From Mycobacterium sp. Marseille-P9652 (lineage in GTDB: Bacteria > Actinomycetota > Actinomycetes > Mycobacteriales > Mycobacteriaceae), in assembly GCF_902652685.1 (NCBI RefSeq), contig NZ_CACRUY010000033.1, positions 1 to 61,370 of the forward strand: 61,370 bases of DNA. Reading direction: 5' to 3'. The position numbers and the translations under genes are program-made. Positions 12,443 to 28,557 of the stretch are shown here, one piece after another. The notes under the pieces are model-generated. The model was not told where the DNA came from. It saw only the letters and a program-made list of their open reading frames with translations, and searched no databases. Every line of letters begins with the position of its first letter. The stretch's first letter is position 1.

Positions 12443-13846
12443 TCAGCCCTCGGACAGCAGCTGCTTCTTGAGCACCTTGCCCATGGCGTTGCGCGGCAAC
12501 GCCTCCACGATGCGCACCTCGCGGGGCCGCTTGTGCACCGAAAGCTGTTGGGCCACATAGTCGACCAGCCCATCCGGCTCGGCCGAGCCGACGACGAAGG
12601 CGACGATCCGCTGGCCCAGGTCCTCGTCGGGCAGGCCCACGACGGCCGCCTCCTGCACGTCCGGGTGTCCGAGCAGCACCGTCTCGATCTCCCCCGCACC
12701 GATGCGGTACCCGCCGGACTTGATGAGGTCCACCGACTCCCGGCCCACGATGCGATGCATGCCGCCGGGGTCGACGACGGCGACGTCACCGGTGCGATAC
12801 CAGCCGTCGGCGTCCAACGCCTCGGCCGTCGCGTCGGGGCGGTTGAGGTAGCCGTCGAACATCATCGGACCCCGAACCTGAAGCCGCCCAACGGTTTCGC
12901 CGTCACGCGGCGCCGGGTCGCCGTTGTCGTCGACCAGCCGGGTCTCCACACCGGCCAGCGGCAGGCCCACCCAGCCCGCGCGCCGTTCGCCGTCGAAGCG
13001 CGTCGAGATCGTGATCAGCGACTCGGAGGCGCCATAGCGCTCGACGGGCTGATGCCCGGTGAGTCGGGCCAGTCCCTCGAACACCGGCACCGGCAGCGGC
13101 GCGCTGCCGGACACCAGCAGCCGGGCGGGTCGCAGCGCCCGGGCGGCCGCCTCGTCGGCGACCACCCGCGACCACACCGTCGGCACCCCGAAGTAGAGCG
13201 TGCCGCCCGCCCGGGCATAGGCGTCCGGCGTCGGTTTTCCCGTGTGCACGAAGCGGTTTCCGATCCGAAGCGACCCGAGCAGCCCCAGCACCAGCCCGTG
13301 CACGTGGAACAGCGGGAGGCCGTGCACCAGCACGTCGTCGGGGGTCCATTGCCAGGCCTCGGCGAGCGCGTCGAGGTCGGCGGCGATCGCCCGCCGGCTC
13401 AGGATCACCCCCTTGGGCAGACCGGTGGTGCCGGAGGTATAGATGACCATCGCGGTCGCGTCGGGCGACGGCTCCGGATAGCGGTGCCAGGATCGGGCGT
13501 GTAAGCGAACGGGTATGTGCGGCAACCCTTCCGGGTCATCGGGCGGCGGCCCGAGCCACGCACGCACCCCGGAGTCGGTGATCATGTGCCGTCGTTCGGC
13601 CGCGCCGACGTCGGCGGGAACCGGAACGAACGGCACCCCGGCGATAAGGCAGCCGGTGACGGCCAGCACCGTCGCCGCGGTCGGGGTGGCCAGCACCGCG
13701 ACGCGCCCGGCCCCCGCGACCCGCTCGGCCACCGACGTCGCGGCGCCGACCAGGTCGCTACGGCTCAGCACCGCGCCGTCGATGCGGACCGCGTCGGCGA
13801 CGTCGTTGGCGCTGACGGCCGAGGGATTCAGGGAGGCCAGCAGCAC
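12443..13846 (-). CDS. fadD36: Acyl-CoA synthetase FadD36
   Basis: This 467-residue ANL enzyme has the P-loop MVIYTSGTTGLPKGV, the GYLNRPDATAEA and DGWYRTGDVAVVD segments, and the C-terminal lysine region RNAMGKVLKKQLL. Length and sequence match Rv1193 (FadD36, 473 residues), which is close to short or dicarboxylic acid-activating (malonyl-CoA synthetase-like) enzymes; the substrate remains uncertain. It starts at GTG 13846, one base after the stop of the upstream hydrolase gene, so the two form an operon. Confidence 0.9.
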   Translation of the reverse strand: MLLASLNPSAVSANDVADAVRIDGAVLSRSDLVGAATSVAERVAGAGRVAVLATPTAATVLAVTGCLIAGVPFVPVPADVGAAERRHMITDSGVRAWLGPPPDDPEGLPHIPVRLHARSWHRYPEPSPDATAMVIYTSGTTGLPKGVILSRRAIAADLDALAEAWQWTPDDVLVHGLPLFHVHGLVLGLLGSLRIGNRFVHTGKPTPDAYARAGGTLYFGVPTVWSRVVADEAAARALRPARLLVSGSAPLPVPVFEGLARLTGHQPVERYGASESLITISTRFDGERRAGWVGLPLAGVETRLVDDNGDPAPRDGETVGRLQVRGPMMFDGYLNRPDATAEALDADGWYRTGDVAVVDPGGMHRIVGRESVDLIKSGGYRIGAGEIETVLLGHPDVQEAAVVGLPDEDLGQRIVAFVVGSAEPDGLVDYVAQQLSVHKRPREVRIVEALPRNAMGKVLKKQLLSEG

Positions 13847-13847
13847 G

Positions 13848-14753
13848 TTACTGCTGGTCCCAGATCTTCGTCAGGGTGGACAGGATCTCCTCGCCGCGGC
13901 CGAGCCCGCCGAGGTGGCTTTCGCCCGGCAGCACGATGAGCTCGGCGTCGGGGAGGCGGGAGACCACGTGCTCGCCGTGTGCGAACGGGACGATGTGGTC
14001 GCTGTCGCCGTGCCACCAGCGCACCGGGACCTTGACGTCCTCGAGCCGAAAGCCCCAGTCACCGGTGAACAGGATGATGTCGTTGAAGGGGGCGGCGAGC
14101 TGCTTGCGGCTGCCGTTGAGCAGGTCGTCGAGGAACATGGCCCCGAACTCGGGCCGGGTGAGCAGGCGCCGGTCGCCTTCCGGCGATATCGCGGCGTAAA
14201 GCTGCAGCGCCGTGTTCGCGACGGGACGGATGGACCGCACCACCAGGCTCGCGCCGATGCGCAGCGGGTCGCCCCCGAGCCGCAGCAGCGGAGCCACCCG
14301 CTTGCCGAGGTTCATCAGGCCGCTGGTGATTCCCTCGTCGCCGAGGAACGGCGCGACGCCGCCGAGCACCCCGACCGCGACCACGCGATCGGACAGCACC
14401 GCGGCGGACGCGAGCGCGTACGGGCCGCCGCCGGACAGCCCGATGACCGCCATTTTGTCGATGCCGAGCGTGTCGGCGATGGTGCGCAGGTCGTCGCCGA
14501 ACGCCCGGATGTTCGCGTACCGGTGGGGCGTCGACGAACCGATGCCGGGCCGGTCGAGGCCGATCAGGCGGATGCCGCGCTCTTCGGCGCAGACGCGGGC
14601 CTCGACCGGGATCTGCCGCCGCGCGCCGGGGGTGCCATGCAGCCAGAACATCGCGCGCCCCTGCGGGTCGCCGAACTCGGCGAAGCCGATCTGGCGGTCC
14701 TCGCCGACCGCGATGTTTCCTTCGAGCTTGGGACGGGCGATCTCGATGGCCAT
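13848..14753 (-). CDS. Alpha/beta hydrolase (Rv1191-like)
   Basis: This 301-residue alpha/beta-hydrolase has the oxyanion-hole HGTPG, the nucleophile elbow GLSGGG, the acid segment WWHGDSDHIVPF and the terminal catalytic His in PGESHLGGLG. The pattern is close to Rv1191 of M. tuberculosis, a predicted esterase or hydrolase of unknown substrate. It lies directly upstream of fadD36 with a one-base gap; a joint route in which it frees an acid that FadD36 activates is inference. Confidence 0.87.
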   Translation of the reverse strand: MAIEIARPKLEGNIAVGEDRQIGFAEFGDPQGRAMFWLHGTPGARRQIPVEARVCAEERGIRLIGLDRPGIGSSTPHRYANIRAFGDDLRTIADTLGIDKMAVIGLSGGGPYALASAAVLSDRVVAVGVLGGVAPFLGDEGITSGLMNLGKRVAPLLRLGGDPLRIGASLVVRSIRPVANTALQLYAAISPEGDRRLLTRPEFGAMFLDDLLNGSRKQLAAPFNDIILFTGDWGFRLEDVKVPVRWWHGDSDHIVPFAHGEHVVSRLPDAELIVLPGESHLGGLGRGEEILSTLTKIWDQQ

Positions 14754-14912: not shown

Positions 14913-17189
14913 CTACGCGTTCATCACCCTCTCCCCGATGACCCCCTCGGCCCGCAGTCCCTCCACCTCCGCGTCGGACAAGCCCAGCCCGCGCAAGATC
15001 TCGTCATTGTGCTGACCCAACGTCGGCGGCGCGGTGCGGTGGTGGCGCGCCGGTCCGTGGGTGATCCGAAACGGCCAGCCGGGGTAGCGGTGCGGCCCGG
15101 TGATGGGGTGCTCGAGCTGCTCGTAGTAACCGCGCGCGTCGAGTTGGGGAAGGTCGTAGAGGTCGTCGCCCGTCATCACCCGTTCCGCAGCAATGCCTTG
15201 CGCCTGCAGCGTTGTCACGATAGACGCGGCAGCCTGCGTGCGGGTCCATGCGCTGACCATGACGTCGAACAGGTCGTGGTCCATCGACCCGTCGTCGCGC
15301 AGTGCCAGCGCCACCCACACCCCCTCCTCGGCGGTCGGGTAGACACCCTGGAGGTAGCCGCGCCGGCGGTTGCCCTCGCGCGGGCGCACGACACCGTTCA
15401 TCGAATACTCGATCACCGGTTCGGCGGTCACACACGCCGCGACCTCGATCTGGGCCACCTCGATCAGTTGCCCCTCGCCGGTGCGGGCGCGGTGCTCGAG
15501 GGCGGCCACCAGCGCGACGCCGGCGTGCACGCCGACGATGGGATCGGCCGGTCCCTGCGGGTTGCACGGCGGCCCGTCGGGATAGCCGGTGGCCGCGGAC
15601 ATGCCCGACGTCTGCTCGATGTTCAGCGCCCAGCCGACGTAGTCGCGCCAAGGGCCCTCCAGGCCGAAGCCCGGCATCCGCACGACGACGATGTCGCGCT
15701 TGAGCGTGACGAGGGAGTCGTAGTCGAGGCCGAATTGTTCGACCACGCGCGGGGAGAAGTTCTCGATGACGACGTCGGCCTGCGCGGCGAGTCGCCGCGC
15801 GATGTCCAGGCCGCGGGCCGACGTCAGGTCGAGCGTCAGGTCCCGCTTGTTGAGGTTGGTGCCCTGCCAGATGGCGCTGCGCTCGTACCAGTCGTCGCCC
15901 TCGTAGGCGAAGGCGCCCGAGTAGCGGTGCCCGTCGGGCCGCTGGATGGACTCCACCTTGACGATGTCGGCGCCGAACGCGCCCAGGTAGCACGTGAGGT
16001 AGGCCCCGGCCCAGAAGGTGGTGAGGTCGAGCACCCGCACGCCGTCGAAGGGCAGTCCACCGCCGGCCGGCGCCAGGAACCGCGGTTCGGTGGCGAACTG
16101 GCGGGGCGGTTCGCCCGCGCCCGGAAGTGGCTGCCCGACCGGGGTTTTGGAGAACCTGAACGCCGCGCCCGGTCGGCGAAACGACCCCGCCTGCACGAAG
16201 AACCCGCGCTTGGCGTACTGCGGGCAGTCCAGCACGGTGGCGCCGTCGTTCACCGGGGCCGTCGGAATCCGCAGCGCCTGGCCCAATTCCACAATCTCGG
16301 CGACGGTCTGTGCGGCGAGCAGCGGCTCCGCCTTCGCGAAGAACTCGTCGCGCTCGGGCCCGCCCATCATGATCGCGATCTGGTGTTCGCCGTACTCGGG
16401 CAGGCCGAGCATCGCGCAGACGTCGAGCCAGTGCTGACCGGTCAGACAATTGATGCCGACCCATCCGTCGGCGGCGCGGACGACACCCAGCATCGGCGCC
16501 GAACGCAGGTTCGGCGGCAGGCCAAGGCGTTTCATGCGCTCGGCCATCAGCATCGGGTACGGCAAGGTGGACACCAAAGTCTCCAACCGCGAGACGTCGA
16601 CCTCCCGAAGCCGGCCGTCGGGGCGCACCCGCAGCGCGGTGAGCGCGCCCAGCGCGCCGTAGGCGCCCGCGACGTATTCGGAGATGCGGGCGCCCACCTG
16701 CACGGGTGGGCGCTGGGGGTCGCGCGACGAGACCCAACCCGACGCGGCCTCGAGCGTGAGCGGCGTTGCCGGCCGGTGCCGCCACGGCCCGCACTGGCCG
16801 AACGGAGAGATCCGCAGCACGACCAGGCTTGGATTCAGGTGAGCGAGCGCGTCCGGACCCAGCCCCCAGCCGTCCAGCGTCCCGGGCGCGAAGTCTTCGA
16901 CCAGCAAGTGCGCCCGCGCGATGAGGTCACCGACGAATTGCGAGCCTTCCCGCGTGGCCAGATCGGCTGTGGCAGCGGTCTTTCCCGCGTTGAGGTACTC
17001 GAACAGGCCGGCGCGCCGTGGATCCACCACCCCGCCGGGGAACGGGCCCCACCGGCGCAGCGGGTCACCGCCGGGCGCCTCCATCTTGACGACCTCGGCG
17101 CCGAGGTCGACGAGAAGCTTTGCGGCGTAAGGGCCTGAGATTTCGGTGGCGAGATCGACGACGTGGAGCCCGGCGAGGGGTCCCGTCAT
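14913..17189 (-). CDS. Class III CoA transferase with two fused CaiB/BaiF domains
   Basis: This is a 758-residue protein. Each half repeats the family III pattern: LAGLHVVDLATEISGPYAAKLLVDLGAEVVKME near the N-terminus, and a second start FDGVRVLDLTTFWAGAYLTC near residue 383 with AQADVVIENFSPRVVEQFG. Such enzymes move CoA between carboxylic acids. ATG 17189 overlaps the stop of the aldehyde dehydrogenase gene (ATGA), so the two are coupled; the open frame upstream to 17378 is not conserved. In this cluster it would turn the acid from the aldehyde dehydrogenase into the CoA thioester used by the acyl-CoA dehydrogenases, in place of the FadD ligase seen in cholesterol side-chain catabolism. Confidence 0.9.
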   Translation of the reverse strand: MTGPLAGLHVVDLATEISGPYAAKLLVDLGAEVVKMEAPGGDPLRRWGPFPGGVVDPRRAGLFEYLNAGKTAATADLATREGSQFVGDLIARAHLLVEDFAPGTLDGWGLGPDALAHLNPSLVVLRISPFGQCGPWRHRPATPLTLEAASGWVSSRDPQRPPVQVGARISEYVAGAYGALGALTALRVRPDGRLREVDVSRLETLVSTLPYPMLMAERMKRLGLPPNLRSAPMLGVVRAADGWVGINCLTGQHWLDVCAMLGLPEYGEHQIAIMMGGPERDEFFAKAEPLLAAQTVAEIVELGQALRIPTAPVNDGATVLDCPQYAKRGFFVQAGSFRRPGAAFRFSKTPVGQPLPGAGEPPRQFATEPRFLAPAGGGLPFDGVRVLDLTTFWAGAYLTCYLGAFGADIVKVESIQRPDGHRYSGAFAYEGDDWYERSAIWQGTNLNKRDLTLDLTSARGLDIARRLAAQADVVIENFSPRVVEQFGLDYDSLVTLKRDIVVVRMPGFGLEGPWRDYVGWALNIEQTSGMSAATGYPDGPPCNPQGPADPIVGVHAGVALVAALEHRARTGEGQLIEVAQIEVAACVTAEPVIEYSMNGVVRPREGNRRRGYLQGVYPTAEEGVWVALALRDDGSMDHDLFDVMVSAWTRTQAAASIVTTLQAQGIAAERVMTGDDLYDLPQLDARGYYEQLEHPITGPHRYPGWPFRITHGPARHHRTAPPTLGQHNDEILRGLGLSDAEVEGLRAEGVIGERVMNA

Positions 17190-18655
17190 GCGGGAACCCC
17201 GATGGCCTTCACCTCCATGTACTGGTGCAGTCCGCTGACGGCGCCGCTCTCGCGACCGAACCCGCTGAGCTTGAACCCGCCGAACGGCGCGTCCCCCGGG
17301 CCGACGCCGTTGACCGCGACCTGGCCGGTGCGGATGCGGCGGGCGATACCGACGGCCCGGTCGACGTCGCCGCCCCACACGGCGCCGGACAACCCGTAGC
17401 GCGAGTTGTTGGCGATCGCGACCGCGTCGTCGTCGTCGCGATAACGGAGCACCGACAGCACGGGGCCGAACACCTCCTCCTGCGCGATGGTCGAATCCGG
17501 ATCGACGTCGGTCAAAATCGTTGGCTCGAAATAGAACCCGGTGTCCAGGCCGGCCGGTCGCCCGCCGCCGGCGACCAGCTTCGCCCCCTCGTTGACGGCC
17601 GTGTCGACGTGCGCCTGGACTCGGTCGCGCTGCGCCGCGCTGATCAGCGGACCCATCTGGGCATCCGGGTCCCTCGGGTCACCCACCTTCACGTCGCGGG
17701 CGAGTGTGACCAGGCGGTCGACCACGTCGTCGTGCAGCGAGTCGGGAAGCAGCAGCCGGCTGTGCAGGATGCAGGCCTGGCCGGCGTGCAGCGAGCAGCA
17801 GTCGAACAGCAATTGGCGCAGCATGTCGTCGTCGACCTGCGCGTCGTCGAGCACGATGCTGGCCGACTTCCCGCCGCACTCCAGCAAGAGCCGCTTCATG
17901 GAATCGCCGGCGGTCCGCATGACCTCGCAGCCCACGGCCGAGCTGCCGGTGAAGCTGATCATGTCGACCCGGGGGTCGGTGGTGAGCAGCTTGGCGGCGT
18001 CCAACGCCGACGGGGTGACGACGTTGACGACACCGGGCGGGATGTCGGTGTGCTCGTCGATGATGCGGGCGAGCGCAAGGCCGGCGAGCGGCGTAAGCGG
18101 CGAGGGCTTGAGCACGACCGTATTGCCCGCCGCCAGAGCGTTGTTCACCTTCATCACGTTGAGGCAGTGCGGAAAATTCCACGGCGTCAATATGGAGACG
18201 ACGCCGAGCGGCTCGCGGCGCAGCAGCGTCGTCCCGGCACCGACGCCGGTGACCGGCTCGTCGACCAGCTGCGTGGCGAGCTGCGCCGCATACATGGACA
18301 TGTATCCGGTGCCGTCGATCTGCATCATCCGCTCGTTCGCGACGCATCCCCACTCCGCCTGCGACAGGGCGAAGAACTCGTCGGCGTGCTTGAGCAGCGC
18401 GTCGCCGAGCTGGTTGAGGCACCGGGCGCGGTCCTCGGGGCCCATCGCGGGCCACGGTCCGCTGTCGAAAGCCCGGCGCGCGGCCCCGACCGCCGCACTG
18501 ACTTGTCCGACGCTCGCATCGGGCGCGGTGGCGATGGTCTGCTCGGTGGCCGGGTCGACGTCGTCGTAGCGGCCGCCCTCCGGTTCCACCCATCTGCCGT
18601 CGATGTAGAGCTGGTAGGTGTCGACAAGTGGTACCGCAGGCGCTAGTTCGGCCAT
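17186..18655 (-). CDS. NAD(P)-dependent aldehyde dehydrogenase
   Basis: This 489-residue ALDH has the nucleotide-binding TPWNFP and FTGSSAVG motifs, the general-base Glu in LLECGGKSASIV, and the catalytic Cys in HAGQACILHS. EEVFGPVLSVL and the C-terminal PFGGFKLSGFGRE are also present. It is the first gene of a two-gene unit with the CoA transferase and diverges from the P450 operon across a 180-base region holding a palindromic operator. The likely role is oxidation of a side-chain aldehyde from the alcohol dehydrogenase at 24911-25981. Confidence 0.92.
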   Translation of the reverse strand: MAELAPAVPLVDTYQLYIDGRWVEPEGGRYDDVDPATEQTIATAPDASVGQVSAAVGAARRAFDSGPWPAMGPEDRARCLNQLGDALLKHADEFFALSQAEWGCVANERMMQIDGTGYMSMYAAQLATQLVDEPVTGVGAGTTLLRREPLGVVSILTPWNFPHCLNVMKVNNALAAGNTVVLKPSPLTPLAGLALARIIDEHTDIPPGVVNVVTPSALDAAKLLTTDPRVDMISFTGSSAVGCEVMRTAGDSMKRLLLECGGKSASIVLDDAQVDDDMLRQLLFDCCSLHAGQACILHSRLLLPDSLHDDVVDRLVTLARDVKVGDPRDPDAQMGPLISAAQRDRVQAHVDTAVNEGAKLVAGGGRPAGLDTGFYFEPTILTDVDPDSTIAQEEVFGPVLSVLRYRDDDDAVAIANNSRYGLSGAVWGGDVDRAVGIARRIRTGQVAVNGVGPGDAPFGGFKLSGFGRESGAVSGLHQYMEVKAIGVPA

Positions 18656-18716
18656 GTGTGTCCCTCACCCGGAGTCGGTCATCTAGAGGGCCAGTGTTCA
18701 CCTCCCGTCACCACGC

Positions 18717-18754
18717 GTCAATCACCAATTTTGCGCTATGACGACATGATTGAC
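18717..18754. promoter_or_regulatory. Inverted repeat in the divergent ALDH/P450 promoter
   Basis: GTCAATCA (18717-18724) and TGATTGAC (18747-18754) are perfect 8-base inverted arms separated by 22 bases, on the ALDH side of the intergenic region. They may be a second regulator site or flank the ALDH promoter. Confidence 0.35.
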
Positions 18755-18789
18755 AGGGGCGGCCCGTACGGAGTAGACACGACGCGCAG

Positions 18790-18810
18790 GACACATTGGA
18801 CCAATGTGTC
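18790..18810. promoter_or_regulatory. 21-bp palindromic operator upstream of the P450 operon
   Basis: Perfect 10-base arms GACACATTGG (18790-18799) and CCAATGTGTC (18801-18810) flank a single A. The site ends 25 bases before the P450 start and lies between the two divergent transcription units of the catabolic island. Its size and symmetry suit a TetR dimer; the obvious candidate is the TetR gene at the end of this operon (25978-26592). Confidence 0.65.
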
Positions 18811-18835
18811 GGATCCTCGGTCAGGGAGGTTCGCC

Positions 18836-20017
18836 GTGCGGACTACGTTTCCACTGCACTCCCCCGACTTCTACGCGGGCGATCCCTACCCCGCCTACCG
18901 CGAATTGCGTGCCACGTCGCCGGTGTGCTGGAACGACGTCACCAACTTCTGGGCGCTGCTGAAGTACGAGGACATTCGCTTCGTGTCGAGCAATCCGGCC
19001 CTGTTCACCTCGACGAAGGGCATCACGATCCCCGACCCGGACCAGCCCAACCCCGTGCAGGAGGGCAACCTCATCTTCACCGACCCGCCGCGGCACCGGC
19101 AGTTGCGCAAGCTGATCAACTCCGGGTTCACCCGGCGCCGGGTCGCCGTGCTGGAACCGAAGATCCGCGAGATCGTGCGCGGCCTTCTGGACGGCGTCGA
19201 GCCGGGATCCGTCCACGAGTTCGCCGAGGAGTTCGCCGCCCCCCTGCCCACCCGGATGATCGCCGAGCTGATCGGCGCCCCGCCCGACGACTGGGAGCAG
19301 TTCCGCGCCTGGTCGGACGCGGCCACCGGCAGCGCCGACCCGGAGATCGAGCTCGACCCCCTCGTGGCGATGGGCCAGCTGTACGAGTACTTCCAGAAGC
19401 TCATCGGCGCCAGGCGGGCCGAGCCGCGCGACGACATGCTCTCGGTGCTCGCCGGCGCGGAAATCGACGGGCACCGCCTCACCGACGAAGACCTGCTCAA
19501 CTTCGCGTTCCTGCTGTTGGTCGCCGGCAACGAGACCACCCGCAACCTGATCGCGCTGGGCACGCTGGCGTTGATCGCCCACCCCGATCAATGCCGGCTC
19601 CTGACAAGCGATCCCGCGCTCATTCCGTCCGCGGTCGAGGAGATGTTGCGGTGGAACAGCCCCGTGGTACACATGGCGCGCACCGCGACCGCCGACGTCG
19701 AGATCCGCGGGCAGCGGATCGCCGAAGGCGACACGGTGGTGATGCTCTACGGCTCGGCCAACCGCGACGAGGACATCTTCGGCCCCGACTCGGAACAGTT
19801 CAAGGTGACCCGACATCCGAATCCCCACATCGCCTTCGGCTGCGGCGAACACTCCTGCGTCGGGGCGCAGTTGGCGCGTCTCGAGGCGTCGGTGATGTTC
19901 GACGAGCTGCTGCGGCGCTTCCCCACCCTGGAGCTGGTCGGTGAGGTGGACCGGATGCGGGCGACGATGGTGCCCGGCGTGAAGCGGATGCCGGTGCGGC
20001 TCGGGACGGCGGGCTGA
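18836..20017 (+). CDS. Cytochrome P450, first gene of the catabolic operon
   Basis: This is a 393-residue class I bacterial P450. It has the I-helix oxygen-binding LLVAGNETTRNL, the K-helix EEMLRW, and the heme-binding loop AFGCGEHSCVG with ligand Cys341. I chose GTG 18836 because AGGGAGG (18823-18829) lies six bases upstream and the family start HSPDFYAGDPYPAYRELRA follows; the frame is open upstream to 18656. I cannot assign the CYP family. It would hydroxylate a terminal or branched carbon to start side-chain removal, as CYP125 does for cholesterol. No ferredoxin or reductase gene lies in the cluster. The next gene starts directly after its stop. Confidence 0.92.
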   Translation: MRTTFPLHSPDFYAGDPYPAYRELRATSPVCWNDVTNFWALLKYEDIRFVSSNPALFTSTKGITIPDPDQPNPVQEGNLIFTDPPRHRQLRKLINSGFTRRRVAVLEPKIREIVRGLLDGVEPGSVHEFAEEFAAPLPTRMIAELIGAPPDDWEQFRAWSDAATGSADPEIELDPLVAMGQLYEYFQKLIGARRAEPRDDMLSVLAGAEIDGHRLTDEDLLNFAFLLLVAGNETTRNLIALGTLALIAHPDQCRLLTSDPALIPSAVEEMLRWNSPVVHMARTATADVEIRGQRIAEGDTVVMLYGSANRDEDIFGPDSEQFKVTRHPNPHIAFGCGEHSCVGAQLARLEASVMFDELLRRFPTLELVGEVDRMRATMVPGVKRMPVRLGTAG

Positions 20018-21217
20018 ATGGAACTCGACTACACGCCCGAACAGCAGCGCCTCCGCGCCGAGATCCGGGAGGCGCTGGAACGCGTGATGACGCCGGAACG
20101 GACCGCCGCGGTGGGCGAAGGCGCCGAGGGCGGCCCCGCGGTCCGCGAGTGCGTGAAGGCCCTGGGTGCCGCCAACCTGCTGGGCGTGGGCTGGCCGAAA
20201 GAGTATGGCGGGCGCGGCTTCTCGGCCCTCGAGCAGTTCATCTTCGCCGAGGAGGCCCAGCGGGTGGGCGCGCCGATCCCGCTCGTGACGCTCAACACCG
20301 TCGGACCGACCCTGATGCAGTACGGCACCGAGGAACAGAAGCGCCGGTTTCTGCCCGCGATCCTCGACGGCAGCGTGGAGTTCGCGATCGGATACTCCGA
20401 ACCGGGCGCGGGCAGCGACCTTGCGTCGTTGCGCACCACGGCCGTTCGCGACGGGGACGACTACGTGATCAACGGTCAGAAGATGTTCACCAGCGGCGCC
20501 GCGCACGCCGATTACGTCTGGCTGGCCGCACGCACCGACCCCAGCGTCAAGAAGCACAAGGGCATTTCGATCCTCATCGTGCCCACCTCCTCGCCCGGCT
20601 TCTCCTGGCAGCCGCTGCACACCATGCCGGGCGTCTCCACGTACTACACCTTCTACGACGACGTCCGCGTCCCGGCGAGCGCCATCGTGGCCGGAGAGAA
20701 CCAAGGCTGGCAGCTGATCACCACACAGTTGAACTTCGAGCGCGCCGCGCTCGGCAACCTCGGGGCGCTCGAGCCGCTGTTCGAGAAAACCTTGGACTGG
20801 GCGTGCGCCACGGAGCTCGACGGCGGCCGCGTCATCGACCGGCCCTGGGTGCGGCTCGCCCTGGCCCGCGTCGAGGCGCAGGTCGCCGCCTACAAGCTCG
20901 TCAACGCGCGGGTCAACGCGGCCATGACCAAGGGCGATCTGAGTATGGGCGAGGCTTCGGCCGCCAAGGTGTTCGGCACCGAGCTCACCCAACAGGTCGC
21001 CCGGCAGCTCCTGGAAGTGCTCGACGGCAACGGGATTCGCCGCGGCCCGGACGCACCGCTGCGTGGCGCGCTGGAATCCGCCTACCGATTCGCTGTGATC
21101 AACACGTTCGGTGGCGGCGCCAACGAGATCCAGCGTGACATCATCGCCATGGCAGGCTTGGGCATGCCCAGGGCCCCGCGTGACCTGCGGGCCCAGCAAC
21201 AGTCAGGAGGATCATGA
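20018..21217 (+). CDS. Acyl-CoA dehydrogenase, FadE29-like subunit
   Basis: This 399-residue flavoprotein has the ACAD signatures FAIGYSEPGAGSDLASLRT and DYVINGQKMFTSGAAHADYVW and the FAD-contact tail GGGANEIQRDIIA. With the second ACAD at 22169 it forms a pair like FadE28/FadE29 of the cholesterol igr operon, which makes an alpha2beta2 enzyme that desaturates the CoA-bound three-carbon steroid side chain. The ATG directly follows the P450 stop (TGAATG) and its own stop overlaps the next start (ATGA), so it is part of a tightly coupled operon. Confidence 0.9.
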   Translation: MELDYTPEQQRLRAEIREALERVMTPERTAAVGEGAEGGPAVRECVKALGAANLLGVGWPKEYGGRGFSALEQFIFAEEAQRVGAPIPLVTLNTVGPTLMQYGTEEQKRRFLPAILDGSVEFAIGYSEPGAGSDLASLRTTAVRDGDDYVINGQKMFTSGAAHADYVWLAARTDPSVKKHKGISILIVPTSSPGFSWQPLHTMPGVSTYYTFYDDVRVPASAIVAGENQGWQLITTQLNFERAALGNLGALEPLFEKTLDWACATELDGGRVIDRPWVRLALARVEAQVAAYKLVNARVNAAMTKGDLSMGEASAAKVFGTELTQQVARQLLEVLDGNGIRRGPDAPLRGALESAYRFAVINTFGGGANEIQRDIIAMAGLGMPRAPRDLRAQQQSGGS

Positions 21218-21762
21218 CGGATCACGACTCGGATGTGTGCGCCAAGCTGCGGGCGCTCGTCGGGAAGCCCACGGGTGGCACCGGGAAGCCCTCGGTGGCC
21301 CCGGATCCCGTCAACCAGCCGATGATCCGGCACTGGGCGCACGCGCTCGACGACATGAACCCCGTCTACCTCGATCCGGAGTTCGCGGCGTCGTCGCGGT
21401 TCGGGGGCATCGTGTCGCCGCCTGTCATGCTGCAGACGTGGACCATGCCGTCCCCGAAGCTGGAGGGCATCGGCGACCGGGGTGGCGCCCCCATCGAGAT
21501 CACCAGCAATCCAACGGCTTTCCTCGACGAGGCGGGCTATACGAGCACCGTCGCCACCAACTCGGAGTTCGAGATCGAACGTTATCCCCGGTTGGGTGAT
21601 GTCATCAGCGCGACGACGGTCTACGAGGACGTGTCCGACGAGAAGAAGACCGCGCTGGGCACCGGCTTCTTCCTCACCTGGCTGACGACCTACACCGACC
21701 AGAACGGTGAGGTGTTGGGGCGCCAGCGCTTCCGCGTCCTGCGATTCAGGCCGGCCGGCTGA
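21214..21762 (+). CDS. MaoC-like hydratase subunit lacking the catalytic His (ChsH2 N-terminal-like)
   Basis: This 182-residue hot-dog fold protein matches the N-terminal half of ChsH2 (Rv3542c), with PVNQPMIRHWAHALDDMNPVY followed by FGGIVSPPVMLQTW. At the position of the usual MaoC active-site D-x4-H it reads DMNPVY, with Tyr in place of His, as expected for the non-catalytic subunit of a ChsH1-ChsH2 heterotetramer. It overlaps the upstream fadE stop by four bases, and the following DUF35 gene starts on the last base of its stop codon. In the igr operon these two are one fused gene; here they are separate. Confidence 0.85.
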   Translation: MTDHDSDVCAKLRALVGKPTGGTGKPSVAPDPVNQPMIRHWAHALDDMNPVYLDPEFAASSRFGGIVSPPVMLQTWTMPSPKLEGIGDRGGAPIEITSNPTAFLDEAGYTSTVATNSEFEIERYPRLGDVISATTVYEDVSDEKKTALGTGFFLTWLTTYTDQNGEVLGRQRFRVLRFRPAG

Positions 21763-22160
21763 TGGCCCCCCGACTGGCACCGGCGATCAGCCGGGACACC
21801 GAGTTCTTCTGGAACGGGCTGCGCGAGCACAAGCTGCTGATCCAGCGCTGCTCCGGATGCGGCACGCTGCGCCACCCGCCGCGTCCCATGTGCCCCCACT
21901 GCCGTTGCTTGCAGTGGGAGGCGATCGAATCGTCGGGCCACGGCAGCGTCTACAGCTACGTCATGCCGCACGAACCCAAGTTCCCGTTCTTCGAATACCC
22001 CTACATCGTGGCGCTGATCCAACTCGACGAGGGGGTGCGGCTGGTCTCCAACCTGTGCGGCATCGGCCCCGCCGACGTCAGGGTCGGGATGCCGGTCGAG
22101 GTTTTCTACCAGGCATTCGATAACGACCTGGTGCTGCACCAGTTCCGGCCCCGGGCCTAG
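21762..22160 (+). CDS. DUF35 OB-fold protein with zinc ribbon (ChsH2 C-terminal-like)
   Basis: This 132-residue protein has an N-terminal rubredoxin-like zinc ribbon (CSGCGTLRH, then MCPHC) followed by a DUF35 OB-fold, with GSVYSYVMPHEP and PYIVALIQLDEGVRLVSNL. In the cholesterol pathway the DUF35 domain of ChsH2 is the obligate partner of the aldolase Ltp2. By analogy this free-standing protein should pair with the Ltp2-like enzyme at 23730-24899. Start and stop overlap with the upstream gene (TGATG) argues for equal expression. Confidence 0.88.
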   Translation: MAPRLAPAISRDTEFFWNGLREHKLLIQRCSGCGTLRHPPRPMCPHCRCLQWEAIESSGHGSVYSYVMPHEPKFPFFEYPYIVALIQLDEGVRLVSNLCGIGPADVRVGMPVEVFYQAFDNDLVLHQFRPRA

Positions 22161-22168
22161 GCGCCGCA

Positions 22169-23284
22169 ATGGATTTCACCTTCACCGAAGAACAGGAGAC
22201 GGTCGCCAAGGTGGCCCGCGAGGTCTTCGAGCGGCGGGCCACGCCCGAGCGCCTGACCGAGCTGGAGGCCGGCGACAACCGTTACGATCCCGCCCTCTGG
22301 CAGGAGCTGGCCTCGGTCGATCTGCTCGGCGTCGCGACGCCCGAAGCGCTCGGCGGTAACGGGGGCGGGTTTCTGGAGCTGGGGGTCCTGCTGGCCGAGG
22401 TGGGCTGGAGTGTCGCACCGGTGCCGGTCTACGCGACGCTGGTGCTGGGCGCCGATCCCATCGCCCGGCACGGAACGCCGGAGCAGCGGCAACGCTTCCT
22501 GCCGGGCGTCGCGGCGGGATCCCGCATCCTCACCGCGGGTTTGCAGGAGCCCAATCGCTCCGACCCGTTCAGCCCGTCGACCACGGCGCGCCGCGACGGG
22601 CCGAACTGGCGGCTGGAGGGGGTCAAGGAACTGGTGCCCGCCGCGCAGATCGCCGACACCGTGCTGGTGCCCGCGAGCACGGACGAGGGGGACGTCGCCC
22701 TGTTCCTGGTCGGGACCGACGCCCGGGGCGTCGAGGTCCGCCCCGTGGCCACGACCAACCGCGAGCCGCACGCCGACGTCCTCCTCGACGGCGCAACCGT
22801 TTCCGCCGACGACCGCCTCGACGGGTCGGTCGACTCCCTGTACGCCCGCGCGCTCGTCGGCCTCTGCGCCATTCAGCTCGGCGTCGCCGAGCGCGCGCTG
22901 CGGATCGCGGCGAGTTACACGACCGGGCGCGAGCAATTCGGCCGCCCCATCGGCAGCTTTCAGGCCGTTCAGCAGCGCATGGCCGACGCCTTCATCGACG
23001 TCGAGGCGATCCGCTGGACCACGTGGCACGCGGCGTGGCTGATCGCACGGGGACGACCCGCGGACGAGGCGCACCGCGCGGCCCGCATCGCGAAGTTCTG
23101 GGCCGCCGAGGCGGGCTCCCGGGTCGCCGACACCGCCCAGCAGGTGCACGGCGGCATCGGGATCGACGTGACCTATCCCCTGCACCGCTACTTCCTCTGG
23201 GCCAAGCACAACGAGCTCTCCCTCGGTCCCGCCACCGCGCAGCTGGCCGGTATCGGCAGCACCTATCCGGAAGGAATCCGATGA
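22169..23284 (+). CDS. Acyl-CoA dehydrogenase, FadE28-like subunit
   Basis: This 371-residue ACAD-fold protein is shorter than its partner. It opens MDFTFTEEQETVAKVAREVFERRA and carries the C-terminal helix AQQVHGGIGIDVTYPLHRYF. The middle beta domain lacks the usual GSD-type FAD/substrate motif (it reads GLQEPNRSDPFSPST), typical of the specialised subunit of heteromeric steroid ACADs such as FadE28. It probably forms an alpha2beta2 complex with the product of 20018-21217. The next gene overlaps it by ATGA. Confidence 0.88.
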   Translation: MDFTFTEEQETVAKVAREVFERRATPERLTELEAGDNRYDPALWQELASVDLLGVATPEALGGNGGGFLELGVLLAEVGWSVAPVPVYATLVLGADPIARHGTPEQRQRFLPGVAAGSRILTAGLQEPNRSDPFSPSTTARRDGPNWRLEGVKELVPAAQIADTVLVPASTDEGDVALFLVGTDARGVEVRPVATTNREPHADVLLDGATVSADDRLDGSVDSLYARALVGLCAIQLGVAERALRIAASYTTGREQFGRPIGSFQAVQQRMADAFIDVEAIRWTTWHAAWLIARGRPADEAHRAARIAKFWAAEAGSRVADTAQQVHGGIGIDVTYPLHRYFLWAKHNELSLGPATAQLAGIGSTYPEGIR

Positions 23285-23733
23285 CGACCGCGAGGAACCG
23301 CACGACCCTCAAGTGGGCCGACATCAGCGTCGGCGACGAGGTCACACCGCTCGAAATCCCCATCACCACAACGATGATCGTGGCCGGGGCGATCGCCTCA
23401 CGGGACTTCATGCCGGTGCACCACGACCGCGACTACGCCAACAAGCAGGGGTCGCCGAACCTGTTCATGAACATCCTGACCACCAACGGATATTGCGTGC
23501 GCTTCCTCACCGACTGGGCCGGGCCCGAGGCGATGGTCAAGAAACTGTCGATCCGGCTGGGTGTGCCGTGCTTCCCGGACGACCCGCTGACCTTCACCGG
23601 GACGGTGACCGGCAAAACCGAGGGGCAAGACGGAGAGAACTTCGTCGAGGTGGGGTTCAGGGGCTCCAACAGCCTGGGCGATCACGTCTCGGGCACCGCG
23701 GTGCTGAGCCTGCTCGACGGGGCCGGCAGATGA
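23281..23733 (+). CDS. MaoC-family enoyl-CoA hydratase (ChsH1-like)
   Basis: This 150-residue single hot-dog protein has the catalytic pair intact: DFMPVH (D-x4-H) in ASRDFMPVHHDRDYANKQG. The following TDWAGPEAMVKKLSIRLGVP and SLGDHVSGTAVLSL closely match ChsH1 (Rv3541c). It should hydrate the alpha,beta-unsaturated CoA ester made by the two FadE proteins, in complex with the MaoC-like protein at 21214-21762. Both ends overlap neighbours by four bases. Confidence 0.92.
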   Translation: MTTARNRTTLKWADISVGDEVTPLEIPITTTMIVAGAIASRDFMPVHHDRDYANKQGSPNLFMNILTTNGYCVRFLTDWAGPEAMVKKLSIRLGVPCFPDDPLTFTGTVTGKTEGQDGENFVEVGFRGSNSLGDHVSGTAVLSLLDGAGR

Positions 23734-24899
23734 GCAGCTCGCTGCCCGGCAGCTGCGCCATCGTCGGCATCGGCCAGACCGAGTTCTCCAAGGACTCCGG
23801 GCGCAGCGAACTGCAATTGGCCTGCGAGGCGGTCAGTTCCGCGCTCGACGATGCCGGTCTCGCCCCGGCCGACGTCGACGGCATGGTCACCTTCACCATG
23901 GACTCGAGCGACGAGATCGACATCGCCCGCAACGTCGGCATCGGTGACCTGAGTTTCTTCAGCCGCGTGCATCACGGCGGCGGCGCCGCGGCCGGCACCG
24001 TGGTGCACGCGGCGATGGCCGTCGCGACCGGAGTTGCCGACGTCGTGGTGTGCTGGCGCGCCTTCAACGAACGCTCCGGCATGCGCTTCGGCGGGAGCGG
24101 GCGCACCGACCTGGGAACCCCGTTGTTCATGGCGCACTACGCGCCGTTCGGATTGCTCACGCCCGCGGCGTGGGTCGCGATGCACGCCCAGCGTTACATG
24201 TCGACCTATGGGGTCACGAACGAGGACTTCGGCCGCATCGCCGTCGTCGACCGCACGCACGCGGCCACCAACCCCGACGCCTGGTTCTACCAGCGCCCGA
24301 TCACGCTGGAGGACCACCAGAATTCGCGCTGGATCGTGGAACCGGTGCTGCGCCTGCTGGATTGCTGCCAGGAGAGCGACGGCGGCGTCGCCTTGGTGGT
24401 GACCAGCGCCGAACGCGCCCGCGACCTGCGCCAGCCACCCGCGGTCATCACCGCGGCCGCGCAGGGCGCCGCCGCCAACGGCGAGATGATGACCAGCTAC
24501 TACCGCGACGACATCACGGGCCTCCCGGAGATGCGCGTCGTCGCCGACCAGCTGTGGCGGGACTCGGGCCTCAAGCCGCAGGACATCCAAACCGCCTTCA
24601 TCTACGACCATTTCACCCCGTTCGTGTTCGCCCAGCTCGAAGAGCTCGGCTTCTGCGGGCGCGGCGAGGCCAAGGACTTCGCGACCGTCGAACGGCTGTC
24701 CCTCGGTGGCGAGTTCCCGATCAACACCAACGGCGGCCTGCTCGGCGAGGCCTACATCCATGGCATGAACGGCATCACCGAGGGCGTGCGTCAGGTGCGC
24801 GGCACCTCCTGCAACCAGGTGGACAACGTCGAGCACGTGCTGGTCACCTCCGGCACCGGCGTGCCCACCAGCGGGCTGATCCTCGCGCCGACCGACTAG
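23730..24899 (+). CDS. Ltp2-type aldolase of the thiolase superfamily
   Basis: This 389-residue thiolase-fold protein matches Ltp2 (Rv3540c) in length and in NTNGGLLGEAYIHGMNGITEGVRQVRGTSCNQVD (read in two parts near residues 332-365) and SGTGVPTSGLIL at the C-terminus. Ltp2 is a retro-aldolase, not a thiolase; it cleaves the hydroxylated steroid C3 side chain to propionyl-CoA plus a ketone and needs a DUF35 partner. The start ATG overlaps the hydratase stop. The open frame upstream to 23313 is not conserved. Confidence 0.9.
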   Translation: MSSSLPGSCAIVGIGQTEFSKDSGRSELQLACEAVSSALDDAGLAPADVDGMVTFTMDSSDEIDIARNVGIGDLSFFSRVHHGGGAAAGTVVHAAMAVATGVADVVVCWRAFNERSGMRFGGSGRTDLGTPLFMAHYAPFGLLTPAAWVAMHAQRYMSTYGVTNEDFGRIAVVDRTHAATNPDAWFYQRPITLEDHQNSRWIVEPVLRLLDCCQESDGGVALVVTSAERARDLRQPPAVITAAAQGAAANGEMMTSYYRDDITGLPEMRVVADQLWRDSGLKPQDIQTAFIYDHFTPFVFAQLEELGFCGRGEAKDFATVERLSLGGEFPINTNGGLLGEAYIHGMNGITEGVRQVRGTSCNQVDNVEHVLVTSGTGVPTSGLILAPTD

Positions 24900-24910
24900 G
24901 GGGAAACACC

Positions 24911-25981
24911 ATGCCCAAGCTCGCGGTATTGACCGCACCCGGGGGGCCGATCGAGCTGGCCGAATTCCCCCTCACCACACCAGTCCCGGGCACGGCGGCC
25001 CTCAAGCTGCGGATGGCCGGCATCTGCGGCTCGGATCTGCACATCTTCCGCGGCGAGCTGCCGTTGCCGTGCCCCTTCGCGATGGGACACGAGATGGTCG
25101 GCGAAATCGCCGAACTGGGCGAAGCATTGACGACCGATGCGACGGGCAAGCCGCTGGCCGTCGGGGACCGCGTGGTCACGCCGTACTTCTGGACCTGCGG
25201 ACAATGCCACGCCTGCGCCCGTGGCCGCTCCCACGCCTGCCAGAACCTGATGGCCGGGGAATACCGCACCCACGATCAGGCGCCACACTTCGTCGCCGCG
25301 CACGGCGAGTACTACTACACCAGCCGGCGGCAGCCCTTGTACAAGGTGCCCGAGGACCTGGCCGACGAGGCGGTCGCGCCGCTGAATTGCGCCCTGGCAC
25401 AGGTGTTGTTCGCGCTGCGCGACGTTCGGTTGGGCGACACCGTCGTCATCCAGGGCGCCGGCGGCTTGGGAATCAACGCCGCGGCCGTCGCACGCACGGC
25501 GGGCGCGGCGGAAGTCGTCGTCGTCGACATGATCGCCGAGCGGCTGGACGTGGCAGCCGATTTCGGCGCCACCCACTGCATCGATGCGAGCGGCATCTCG
25601 ACGTTCGAGGTCGCCGAGCGGGTCCGCGCCCGCACCGATGGCATCGGGGCCGACTGGGTGCTGGAGGTCGTCGGCGCGCCCGGCGTGATACCCGACGGGG
25701 TCGGGTTCCTCAACAACGGCGGCACGCTGCTCGAGGTCGGAAACGTCGGCATGGGAAGAACATTCGAGCTCGATCCGAGCGTCCTCGTGTACGGCAACAA
25801 GTCCATCCGCGGCGTGATGATGTACGACCCGGTCACTCTGGCCGTCGGCCTGAAGTTCCTCCAGCACAGTCGCTTTCCGTTCGGCCGGCTGATGCCCGAA
25901 CCCTACCGGCTGGCCGACGTCAACGCCGCCTACGCCTCGGCCGACGCCGGGTCCGTCCCGCGAGGTGCCCTGGTGCCGTGA
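24911..25981 (+). CDS. Zinc-dependent alcohol dehydrogenase
   Basis: This is a 356-residue medium-chain dehydrogenase. Catalytic zinc ligands are in GICGSDLHIF and GHEMVGE. The structural zinc site is CGQCHACARGRSHAC (C-x2-C-x2-C-x7-C), and the Rossmann motif is GAGGLGINAA. It starts at ATG 24911 with GGGGGAAA upstream, 11 bases after the aldolase stop. In context it would oxidise the alcohol formed by the P450 to the aldehyde used by the divergently encoded ALDH. Its stop overlaps the start of the TetR gene. Confidence 0.92.
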   Translation: MPKLAVLTAPGGPIELAEFPLTTPVPGTAALKLRMAGICGSDLHIFRGELPLPCPFAMGHEMVGEIAELGEALTTDATGKPLAVGDRVVTPYFWTCGQCHACARGRSHACQNLMAGEYRTHDQAPHFVAAHGEYYYTSRRQPLYKVPEDLADEAVAPLNCALAQVLFALRDVRLGDTVVIQGAGGLGINAAAVARTAGAAEVVVVDMIAERLDVAADFGATHCIDASGISTFEVAERVRARTDGIGADWVLEVVGAPGVIPDGVGFLNNGGTLLEVGNVGMGRTFELDPSVLVYGNKSIRGVMMYDPVTLAVGLKFLQHSRFPFGRLMPEPYRLADVNAAYASADAGSVPRGALVP

Positions 25982-26592
25982 CCACGCATGCGATGAACCA
26001 GCTCACCGACACCCGCGAACTCATCGTCGAGTCGGCCTTTTCCTGCTTCGGCAAACAGGGGCTGCACAAGGCGACGATCGTCGACATCGCCAGGGCGGCC
26101 GGAGTTTCCCGAAGCACCGTCTACGAGTACTTCAGCGACAAGGCCGCCATCGTCGAGGCCTGTGCCGAGCATGCTTCGGAACAGTTCTACCGCGAGATGT
26201 CCAAAGCGATGGACCGCGGCGGCTCCCTCGAGGAAAAGTTGAGCCAGGCCGCCGTCTTCGTGACGCAGGCCCGGCGGGTCATCGCCTCCGAGAAGTACTT
26301 TGACGAGGACGCGGTCAGCCTGCTGCTCACGAAGGACGCCGCGGTGCTGCTGCGCGAGTGCGTCGACTTCATCGCGCCCTATCTGGCCGCGGCCCGGCTC
26401 ACCGGCGAGGTCCGCAAGGACCTCGACATCGAGGCCGCCGGGGAATGGTTCGCGCGCATCCTGTTCTCGCTGTTCAGCACGCCGTCGTCGACATTGGACA
26501 TGGACGACCCCGAGGTGGTGGCCGCGTTCGTCCGCGCCCATGTGGTGCGCGGATTCGCCAACGATCGCGCGCGGCCGCGACGGGCCCAGTGA
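25978..26592 (+). CDS. TetR-family regulator, last gene of the catabolic operon
   Basis: This is a 204-residue protein if GTG 25978 is used (overlapping the ADH stop as GTGA), or 199 from ATG 25993. The N-terminal HTH is FGKQGLHKATIVDIARAAGVSRSTVYEYFSDKAAIV. The C-terminal ligand domain contains EYF-type helices and ends AFVRAHVVRGFANDRARPRR. Being co-transcribed with the enzymes, it probably controls the island by binding the palindrome at 18790-18810, with a CoA-thioester intermediate as a plausible ligand; both points are inference. It converges on a second TetR gene with one base between them. Confidence 0.9.
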   Translation: MTTHAMNQLTDTRELIVESAFSCFGKQGLHKATIVDIARAAGVSRSTVYEYFSDKAAIVEACAEHASEQFYREMSKAMDRGGSLEEKLSQAAVFVTQARRVIASEKYFDEDAVSLLLTKDAAVLLRECVDFIAPYLAAARLTGEVRKDLDIEAAGEWFARILFSLFSTPSSTLDMDDPEVVAAFVRAHVVRGFANDRARPRRAQ

Positions 26593-27342: not shown

Positions 27343-28557
27343 ATGACCGTGTTGGACGATCCGGTGCAGCTCTTCGGCGCCGAGGCGCTGCAGAATCCGG
27401 GCCGGCTGTACGACCGCATGCTCGCCGAGGCGCCGGTGCACCGGATCGGGGATTCCGTGTTCTACGCCGTCTGCGGCTGGGACGCCATGCAGGAGGCCGT
27501 CGACCGGGTGGAGGACTTTTCGTCGAACCTCACCGCGACCATGGTCTTCCACGACGACGGCACCGTGACCCCGTTCGACATGGGTCCGGCCGGCGGCGCG
27601 GCTCACGCGCTGGCCACCGCCGATGACCCGGCGCACGCGCTGCACCGCAAGATCCTGCTGCCGCACCTGTCGGCCAAACGGGTGCGCATCATCGAAGAAT
27701 TCGCCGACCAGACCGCCGACCGCCTGTGGGAGGAGAACCTGCGCGACGACCGCATCGAGTGGATGAGCGCGGTCGCGAACCGGCTGCCCATGATGGTGGT
27801 CGCCAGGCTGCTCGGCCTGCCCGAGGACGACGTCGACAACCTCATCCGGCTTGGCTACGCCACCACCACCCTGCTGGACGGCGTCGTCACCCCCGATCAG
27901 CTCGAAGCGGCCTTCGCGGCCGCGCTCGAGCTCTCCGGCTACGTCACGGAACACTTCGAAAAGGCAAGCGGCGGAACCGAACAGGGCCTCATCCCCGATC
28001 TGGCCGCGCGCTGCCGCTCCGGCGAGCTGGAGCAACTGCCGGCGCTGGGCATCATGCTCACGCTGTTCAGCGCCGCCGGCGAGTCGACGGCGTCGCTGCT
28101 GGGCAGCGCGGCGTGGATTCTCGCCGACCGTCCCGACATTCAACGCCAGGTCCGCGAGAACCCAGGGCTGTTGGGAACTTTCATCGAAGAGACACTTCGC
28201 TACGAGCCGCCCTTTCGTGGCCATTACCGGCACGTCTGGCGCGACACCACCCTCGCCGGCGTCGACGTCCCCGCCGATTCCCATCTAATCCTGCTGTGGG
28301 GAGCGGCCAACCGCGATCCGGCGCATTTCGAGGCGCCGAACGAATTCCGGCTCGACCGCAGCGGCGCCAAGGGCCATCTCACGTTCGGCCGGGGTGTGCA
28401 CTTCTGTGTAGGGGCCGCGCTGGCACGCCTCGAGGCCCGGATTGTGTTGGGGAAGCTGCTCAACCGCACGACCTGGTTGGAGGCGGCCGACGTCGGAGAG
28501 TGGTTACCCAGCATCCTCGTCCGGCGGCGGACGCGGCTGGAATTGGCCGTGCGGTGA
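27343..28557 (+). CDS. cyp144: Cytochrome P450 of the CYP144 family
   Basis: This 404-residue P450 is closely similar to CYP144A1 (Rv1777) through nearly its whole length, for example RVEDFSSNLTATM, TADDPAHALHRKILLPHLSAKR, ETLRYEPPFRGHYRHV and the heme loop FGRGVHFCVGAALARLEARIV. The I-helix reads SAAGESTASLLG. I chose ATG 27343; GTG or other starts up to 27262 would add an unconserved leader. In M. tuberculosis CYP144 has no firm physiological substrate. The lipase gene begins almost at its stop, suggesting co-transcription. Confidence 0.92.
   Translation: MTVLDDPVQLFGAEALQNPGRLYDRMLAEAPVHRIGDSVFYAVCGWDAMQEAVDRVEDFSSNLTATMVFHDDGTVTPFDMGPAGGAAHALATADDPAHALHRKILLPHLSAKRVRIIEEFADQTADRLWEENLRDDRIEWMSAVANRLPMMVVARLLGLPEDDVDNLIRLGYATTTLLDGVVTPDQLEAAFAAALELSGYVTEHFEKASGGTEQGLIPDLAARCRSGELEQLPALGIMLTLFSAAGESTASLLGSAAWILADRPDIQRQVRENPGLLGTFIEETLRYEPPFRGHYRHVWRDTTLAGVDVPADSHLILLWGAANRDPAHFEAPNEFRLDRSGAKGHLTFGRGVHFCVGAALARLEARIVLGKLLNRTTWLEAADVGEWLPSILVRRRTRLELAVR

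Follow-up and report, generated by a model that had tools for sequence, protein, structure and literature searches.

Known side-chain cassettes and the island

Removal of side chains by mycobacteria is known mainly for cholesterol. The igr operon of the cholesterol pathway is ordered P450-FadE28-FadE29-ChsH2-ChsH1-Ltp2; its ChsH2 is a fused protein, a KstR-like box lies upstream, and it contains neither a coenzyme A (CoA)-transferase nor an aldehyde dehydrogenase (ALDH). The casLMNOP genes of Rhodococcus jostii RHA1, which serve bile acids, run in the order acyl-CoA dehydrogenase (ACAD), hydratase, ACAD, hydratase, aldolase, as given by consecutive locus tags in an excerpt of PMC8399759. Here we describe an island of eleven genes that shares this second order, at positions 14913-26592 of a contig of Mycobacterium sp. 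Marseille-P9652 (NCBI RefSeq assembly GCF_902652685.1, contig NZ_CACRUY010000033.1). The window is the whole stretch of 61,370 nucleotides that was analyzed. On each of the igr features listed above, the island shows the opposite: its ChsH2 is not fused, no KstR-like box lies upstream, and both a CoA-transferase and an ALDH are present. The island is a variant of the known three-carbon (C3) side-chain cassette and not a new kind. Many mycobacteria appear to carry it; it is related to, but separate from, the cholesterol side-chain genes and probably cuts off a three-carbon branch. We found no published description of it in the open-licence literature, where it is not searchable by locus tag.

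Gene content and layout

Open reading frame (ORF) calls, translation and Pfam agree on eleven genes in two divergent units, as an earlier reading of the DNA letters alone (below, the sequence-only reading) had proposed. In order of position, they are:

14913-17189, minus strand: CoA-transferase of family III, fused, 758 amino acids (Pfam, 510 bits)
17186-18655, minus strand: ALDH (Pfam Aldedh, 1.1e-149)
18836-20017, plus strand: cytochrome P450 (best PDB matches are resurrected CYP125 ancestors, CYP142 and CYP124)
20018-21217, plus strand: FadEa, predicted catalytic ACAD subunit, CasL/ChsE2/FadE26-like (4x28, 6wy8)
21214-21762, plus strand: MaoCa, predicted non-catalytic hydratase subunit, like the ChsH2 N-domain (4w78_A, 4wnb_A)
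21762-22160, plus strand: stand-alone DUF35 zinc-ribbon/OB protein, like the ChsH2 C-domain (zf-ChsH2, OB_ChsH2_C)
22169-23284, plus strand: FadEb, partner ACAD subunit without the catalytic Glu, CasN/Tcur3481/FadE27-like (PDB matches, tree)
23281-23733, plus strand: MaoCb, predicted catalytic hydratase subunit, ChsH1-like (4wnb_B, 4w78_B)
23730-24899, plus strand: Ltp2-type retro-aldolase (6ok1; NF005892)
24911-25981, plus strand: zinc alcohol dehydrogenase (ADH), optional member (matches to zinc alcohol dehydrogenases)
25993-26592, plus strand: TetR regulator, final gene of the plus unit (Pfam TetR_N)

MaoCb was outside the initial ORF list; it was recovered by translation and then matched to ChsH1 structures. 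The P450 probably starts at 18836 rather than at 18656, with AGGGAGG directly upstream and the start kept in aligned relatives. In the minus unit, the CoA-transferase and ALDH genes overlap by four bases. The plus-strand genes had been described as mostly overlapping; only four of the eight junctions do so, by 1-4 bases, whereas P450 and FadEa abut and the other three leave gaps of 8, 11 and 11 bases. Nor do the genes follow the chemical order that had been ascribed to them: the ADH is second to last along the DNA, past the aldolase. ChsH2 is split here into a MaoC (21214-21762) and a DUF35 (21762-22160) encoded by two genes, instead of one fused protein. Two other fetched clusters, L132 and L184, show the same split.

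Conservation and chromosomal setting

We took the best 80 of 285 loci encoding a FadEb relative, all 80 from mycobacterial records, and split them by identity rank into a near group (41 loci) and an other group (39 loci, one of which, L066, clusters with the near group in trees). The ten genes other than ADH are each present at more than 50% identity, and in the same order, in 71 of the 80; the block is therefore not a product of chance. Nine loci fall short of this. Contig ends truncate three of them; the CoA-transferase is absent from L034 and L036 and the ALDH from L068 and L072, and L093 and L104 have FadEa, FadEb and TetR only. ADH accompanies the block in 29/41 near and 0/39 other loci, some of them cut by contig ends, and in 31/80 under a looser criterion. 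The claim that the cassette brings its own front end is borne out by the P450, ALDH, CoA-transferase and ADH genes, with the qualification that ADH is optional and that CoA-transferase and ALDH are each missing in 2/80 loci. In the two reduced loci (from position 8757 of L093 and from 7471 of L104), a different thiolase-like protein and a DUF35 lie near the FadEa-FadEb-TetR genes.

Near-group blocks have flanks like those of the window: an acyl-CoA synthetase (23/41), a hydrolase (30/41), ProDH (32/41), a RocA-like gene (31/41) and a PucR-like gene (30/41). None of these five is found in the other group (0/39). The block therefore has a definite extent and occurs in at least two settings. Other-group flanks, surveyed in 38 loci, carry a second P450 (26), CaiB (23), SnoaL (18), an AMP ligase (22) and an amidohydrolase/MaoC pair (23 and 24), for example at L089:14013-18803 and L080:850-2504.

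Of 98 genomes sampled from the genus, 33 gave a FadEb match at E<=1e-90. With FadEb alone as the query and evenly drawn genome samples, matches at E<=1e-95 came from 7 among 201 genomes of the family and from 16 among 298 of the order. The single match of the order scan outside the family (G325) shows the FadE pair only within the 13.6 kb read. A genome from another genus of the same family (G140) has the entire block without ADH (L129); its island is surrounded by relatives of the flanking P450 (61%) and CaiB (74%).

Downstream of the CoA-transferase, one further gene may belong to the island in the near group:

13848-14753, minus strand: alpha/beta hydrolase, possible extra member (near group only)

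This hydrolase (30/41 near, 0/39 other loci) is missing at the site in 5/5 island-free genomes examined, and also in six near-group loci having a long enough left flank. Used as an anchor for empty sites, it found a match in 6/10 genomes, with more distant copies in other settings. The adjacent AMP-binding ligase at 12443-13846, a PRK07787-type acyl-CoA synthetase (above the cut-off) which we take to be FadD36, was rejected as an island member: a relative is present in 12/12 island-free genomes examined, which places it in the chromosomal backbone. At the ligase site of six of these twelve genomes, all without a FadEb match, four have the ligase and RocA/ProDH-like genes close together and no island genes; of the other two, one is without RocA/ProDH and one, G029, has a partial island. 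The latter (L213:3808-7471), at the same chromosomal site, retains TetR (82%), P450 (83%) and ALDH (83%), and misses the FadEa-to-Ltp2 core and the CoA-transferase. From these empty and partial sites, the block therefore behaves as a gained, sometimes decaying island.

Relationship to the igr operon

Contig C18 of the Mycobacterium sp. Marseille-P9652 genome (5.70 Mb in 128 contigs) bears an igr operon (L016) distinct from the island and comprising a P450, FadE28-like and FadE29-like proteins, a fused ChsH2 (308 amino acids), ChsH1 and Ltp2. Identity between island and operon is 32% for the P450, 32% and 49% with respect to the FadE28-like and FadE29-like proteins, 37% for the MaoC (against the ChsH2 N-domain), 42% for DUF35, 48% for ChsH1 and about 67-68% for Ltp2. 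The two are alike in enzyme types, and a P450 comes first in both; however, the island order, P450-FadEa-MaoCa-DUF35-FadEb-MaoCb-Ltp2, reverses and interleaves the FadE genes. The sequence-only reading had identified these as FadE28/29. We rejected this orthology because FadE26/27-like proteins are equally close or closer: the island pair is 52% and 41% identical to the genome's own FadE26/27-like pair (contig C18), and 49% and 32% identical to the igr pair.

Trees were computed on subsets of nine near-group and ten other named loci, to which sequences of the same genome and of outgroups were added, and returned long-branch warnings. Island sequences form clades of their own for Ltp2 (22 rows, support 100/100), FadEa (24 rows, 100/99), P450 (13 rows, 100/99) and, among the tree rows listed, FadEb (24 rows, 97/100). 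The P450 clade lies near CYP125/CYP142-like enzymes. For Ltp2, igr sequences constitute another clade (99/99), and so do the cas-type sequences (98/95), with the island outside the latter; island and igr Ltp2 join with weak support (89/62). The distinctness from igr for which the sequence-only reading had called for trees is thus seen in four proteins. That reading had also named orthology to the igr genes, with no second igr operon in the genome, as the finding that would speak against it; the operon on contig C18 and the distinct clades rule out that the island is the igr orthologue.

Relationship to the cas cassette and other systems

The island core order FadE-ChsH2-FadE-ChsH1-Ltp2 is that of six fetched cas-type loci (L133, L170, L171, L174, L176 and L185), whereas eleven fetched loci, including the genome's own igr, show the igr order. 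The description of the cassette as igr-like was thus right as to enzyme types and wrong as to order, which is of the casL-M-N-O-P type. Identity of the six loci to the island is 41-48% for MaoCa (44% in L133), 42-45% for FadEb, 46-52% for DUF35, 45-54% for MaoCb, 48-52% for FadEa and 62-66% for Ltp2. In this comparison, made through the fetched loci and not letter by letter against RHA1, cas-type and island sequences fall into separate Ltp2 and FadEa clades. CasM is one fused protein, whereas its island counterpart is encoded by two genes; the C3 acid is activated by the CoA ligase CasI in cas and by a CoA-transferase in the island; and the cas cassette is without the P450/ADH/ALDH front end. 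Split ChsH2 and front end set the island apart from both igr and cas. The ChsH1/ChsH2-like hydration that had been proposed stands in its protein types and residues, although not as a single ChsH2 protein. In Comamonas testosteroni, according to an excerpt of PMC12502768, engineered separate MaoC and DUF35 remain functional.

Three other systems resemble the island in part. Comamonas testosteroni ORF40-44 shares the enzyme block (ChsH2-FadE-ChsH1-Ltp2, then FadE); unlike the island, ORF40 is fused, the second FadE is past the aldolase and ORF40-44 include no front end. On plasmid pGD02.2.1 of Rhodococcus rhodochrous GD02 (L132), a P450 (39%), a split MaoC/MaoC/DUF35 arrangement and an Ltp2 (65%) occur together with two CaiB proteins, so that this is another Ltp2 cassette with a CoA-transferase. 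It differs from the island in having no FadE pair but two KstD-like flavoproteins instead, and in MaoC proteins that are 30% identical. The flavoproteins resemble KstD or 4-oxocyclohexanecarboxylate dehydrogenase, all under curated cut-offs. The benzylsuccinate CoA-transferase BbsEF (9fn0) consists of two unlike family III halves, one subunit being the best PDB match of each half of the island enzyme; BbsEF has two chains, whereas the island CoA-transferase is a single fused chain. A further Ltp2 cassette, ordered OB-fold protein, FadE, MaoC, Ltp2, FadE, was seen on plasmids of the marine Vibrio alfacsensis (L134).

Catalytic residues

The nearest solved relatives of the core proteins are TcLtp2 (6ok1), ChsH1/ChsH2 (4w78, 4wnb), Tcur3481/3483 (6wy8) and the FadE26/27 complex (4x28). 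Residue counts below refer to island-type sequences passing identity and coverage filters. The island Ltp2 scores 679 bits against NCBIfam NF005892 (cut-off 469), and TcLtp2 is its nearest structure (E 2e-173). The catalytic tyrosines of TcLtp2 are Tyr294 and Tyr344, with roles described in an excerpt of PMC12329534; their counterparts, Tyr292 (in YDHF) and Tyr342, are kept in 77/77 sequences. The genome encodes 15 Ltp2-like proteins, and both tyrosines are present only in those of the island and of igr.

In heteromeric hydratases, one MaoC carries an Asp/His dyad and its partner has Tyr in place of the His, a rule laid out in an excerpt of PMC11321319; roles of residues in relatives are also given in an excerpt of PMC8399759. 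The island conforms: the Asp42/His47 dyad of MaoCb is kept in 80/80 sequences, and Tyr52 replaces the catalytic His of MaoCa in 73/73. At MaoCb position 45, between the dyad residues, Pro is found instead of Asp. FadEa has Glu241 in 81/81 sequences, and the same column in FadEb is Ala; the two would fit the alpha2beta2 pattern of steroid acyl-CoA dehydrogenases, with one catalytic Glu per pair. By these residues, the hydratase has a single catalytic domain and the ACAD a single catalytic subunit, and the catalytic pair of Ltp2 is intact. All four Cys of DUF35 are retained (66/66), as is the Cys of the ALDH motif HAGQAC (74/74), and the P450 heme motif reads FGCGEHSCVGA. In the CoA-transferase, Asp549 of the C-half and Glu171 of the N-half are each kept in 75/75 sequences. 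Asp549 occupies the catalytic-Asp column, which is Asp in 6/6 aligned single-domain CaiB proteins.

A shared promoter region with a conserved palindrome

The two units diverge from a common intergenic region:

18656-18835, no strand: divergent promoter region common to both units (alignments of 22 and 24 sequences)
18790-18810, no strand: 21-bp perfect palindrome GACACATTGGACCAATGTGTC, near the P450, probable TetR operator (predicted)

Opposed promoter elements lie between ALDH and P450, those of the plus strand being a -35 TTGACA (18750-18755) and a -10-like GTAGACA (18773-18779); the promoter pattern occurs once, and not at all in shuffles. The exact palindrome is found nowhere else in the genome, and one more site has two mismatches, a chance level given that the reversed-pattern control gave two matches per strand. 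With a regular expression composed after viewing the alignment, GACA-N13-TGTC was detected in 69/75 divergent intergenic regions, always with a spacing of 13, and was missing in 6/75; a stricter scan for the exact operator was positive in 11/19 loci. The arms of the palindrome covary between loci (for example CACAT/ATGTG and CAGAT/ATCTG), and an operator-form site lies directly upstream of FadEa in both loci reduced to FadEa-FadEb-TetR. The shared promoter and the palindrome support local control of both units by the linked TetR, as a prediction. Lack of co-expression of the two units was the other finding that the sequence-only reading had named against itself; the shared region makes joint control the more probable case.

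For the KstR-like operator we used the motif TnnAACnnGTTnnA, whose matches outside the own igr site are at chance level. We rejected a KstR-type control site for the island, as a scan with this motif found no KstR-like box in 18656-18835; elsewhere in the window, matches are near chance (7 found, 3.8 expected). An exact match lies directly upstream of the own igr P450 (L016:12114-12127).

Proposed function and alternative explanations

We propose, with a probability of roughly 0.55, that the island is a TetR-controlled catabolic module that strips a three-carbon branch, or the last three carbons of a chain, from a bulky steroid-like ring compound. Gene content, conservation, clades, catalytic residues and operator conservation are the direct observations on which this proposal draws. 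Every core protein has as its closest solved relative an enzyme acting on steroid side chains. A steroid-like ring is favored because a heteromeric ACAD and a MaoC partner without activity are characteristic of enzymes that handle bulky rings, as stated in an excerpt of PMC11321319. An excerpt of PMC8399759 adds that C3 removal forms a tertiary hydroxyl, which excludes thiolysis and demands a retro-aldol step.

From these observations we infer each reaction and the order of reactions, the repressor role and the substrate class. On the model of igr and cas, the C3 branch would be oxidized, activated, desaturated, hydrated and cleaved. The P450 would oxidize a terminal methyl, which ADH (where present) and ALDH would take to a carboxylic acid, and the fused CoA-transferase would form the CoA thioester. 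FadEa/FadEb may then introduce an alpha,beta double bond, and MaoCb (catalytic) with MaoCa (substrate-holding) may hydrate it to a tertiary alcohol, which Ltp2 and DUF35 would split by retro-aldol cleavage into a ring ketone and propionyl-CoA. By binding the palindrome (18790-18810), TetR would repress the two divergent units and make the module inducible. The P450-ALDH-CoA-transferase front end would permit a start from an unactivated isopropyl-type group. The separate regulation makes plausible the earlier suggestion that the side chain is not the one of cholesterol.

Several points weigh against this proposal. The front end is not fixed, since some relatives lack ADH and a few lack CoA-transferase or ALDH. 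Near the catalytic tyrosines, the island Ltp2 has fixed changes of Leu300 to Phe and Gln337 to Leu (24/24 others differ), together with His334 to Asn (relative to 23/24 others). These changes suggest an altered pocket or another substrate shape, and steroid specificity therefore may not carry over. The flavoproteins beside the GD02 cassette imply that Ltp2 relatives may act on smaller rings. The P450 joins the CYP125-like/L188 group weakly (90/72), substrate class is not fixed for some P450s and ADHs, and we found no ring-degrading genes within the island.

The island might instead salvage C22 by-products of steroid degradation. ADH and ALDH would oxidize a 22-alcohol (4-HBC) or a 20-carboxaldehyde released by an Atf1/Sal-type aldolase, the CoA-transferase would activate the acid and the core would complete three-carbon removal, leaving the P450 an accessory oxidation. 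The genome does encode a Sal/Atf1-like aldolase, in which YDCY and Gln are present (C8:49719-50882, L007); in M. neoaurum, the path leading to 4-HBC begins with Atf1 (excerpt of PMC10398937), and proteobacterial bile-acid routes likewise need an ALDH and a C3 CoA-activating enzyme (excerpt of PMC8399759). However, no member is less conserved than ADH, whereas every locus uncut by contig ends has the P450, save the two FadE-pair loci; the igr operon in the same cell already processes this CoA ester, and the island promoter region has no KstR-like box; we regard salvage as unlikely. The same promoter region, set against the exact motif match at the own igr, speaks against a second, redundant igr operon serving cholesterol itself. 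Every igr function is represented in the island and its Ltp2 is about 67-68% identical to the igr copy, but the cas-type order, the separate Ltp2, FadEa, FadEb and P450 clades, the island's own TetR with a unique palindrome, and a FadEb match in only 33/98 sampled genomes of the genus make such redundancy very improbable.

A non-steroid route would use the same reactions to take an isopropyl group off a di- or triterpenoid ring, such as a hopanoid, as propionyl-CoA. The island would then be steroid side-chain machinery turned to a new use, with a P450 of its own for activation and an ATP-sparing CoA-transferase, directed at a compound class without a known side-chain pathway. An unactivated isopropyl group would require precisely such a complete front end, the Ltp2 pocket is altered near the catalytic tyrosines, and 18 to 26 of 38 other-group flanks have a second P450, CaiB, SnoaL, an AMP ligase or the amidohydrolase/MaoC pair. 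Since the characterized relatives named here all act on steroids and the flanks are unlike between groups, we consider a terpenoid substrate improbable.

That the same cells have, besides igr, a cassette with separate regulation and a distinct phylogeny suggests that mycobacteria feed on a further bulky substrate. Which compound this is can be tested directly by means of the gene set, the palindrome and the regulator. The island also constitutes a ready enzyme set (P450, heteromeric ACAD, split hydratase/DUF35 and aldolase) for steroid or terpenoid biotechnology, and the natural split of ChsH2 offers a useful comparison for hydratase-aldolase coupling.

Neighboring and related genes

A second P450 gene, P450b (window 27343-28557), adjoins the island and shares 79% identity with a P450 encoded on the genome's contig C19. 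It was rejected as a member of the unit, as it lies beside the island in 0/41 near and 1/39 other loci. Elsewhere in the genome, at C8:46484-50882, a FadE pair is followed by a Sal/Atf1-like aldolase with YDCY, possibly an HBC sub-pathway.

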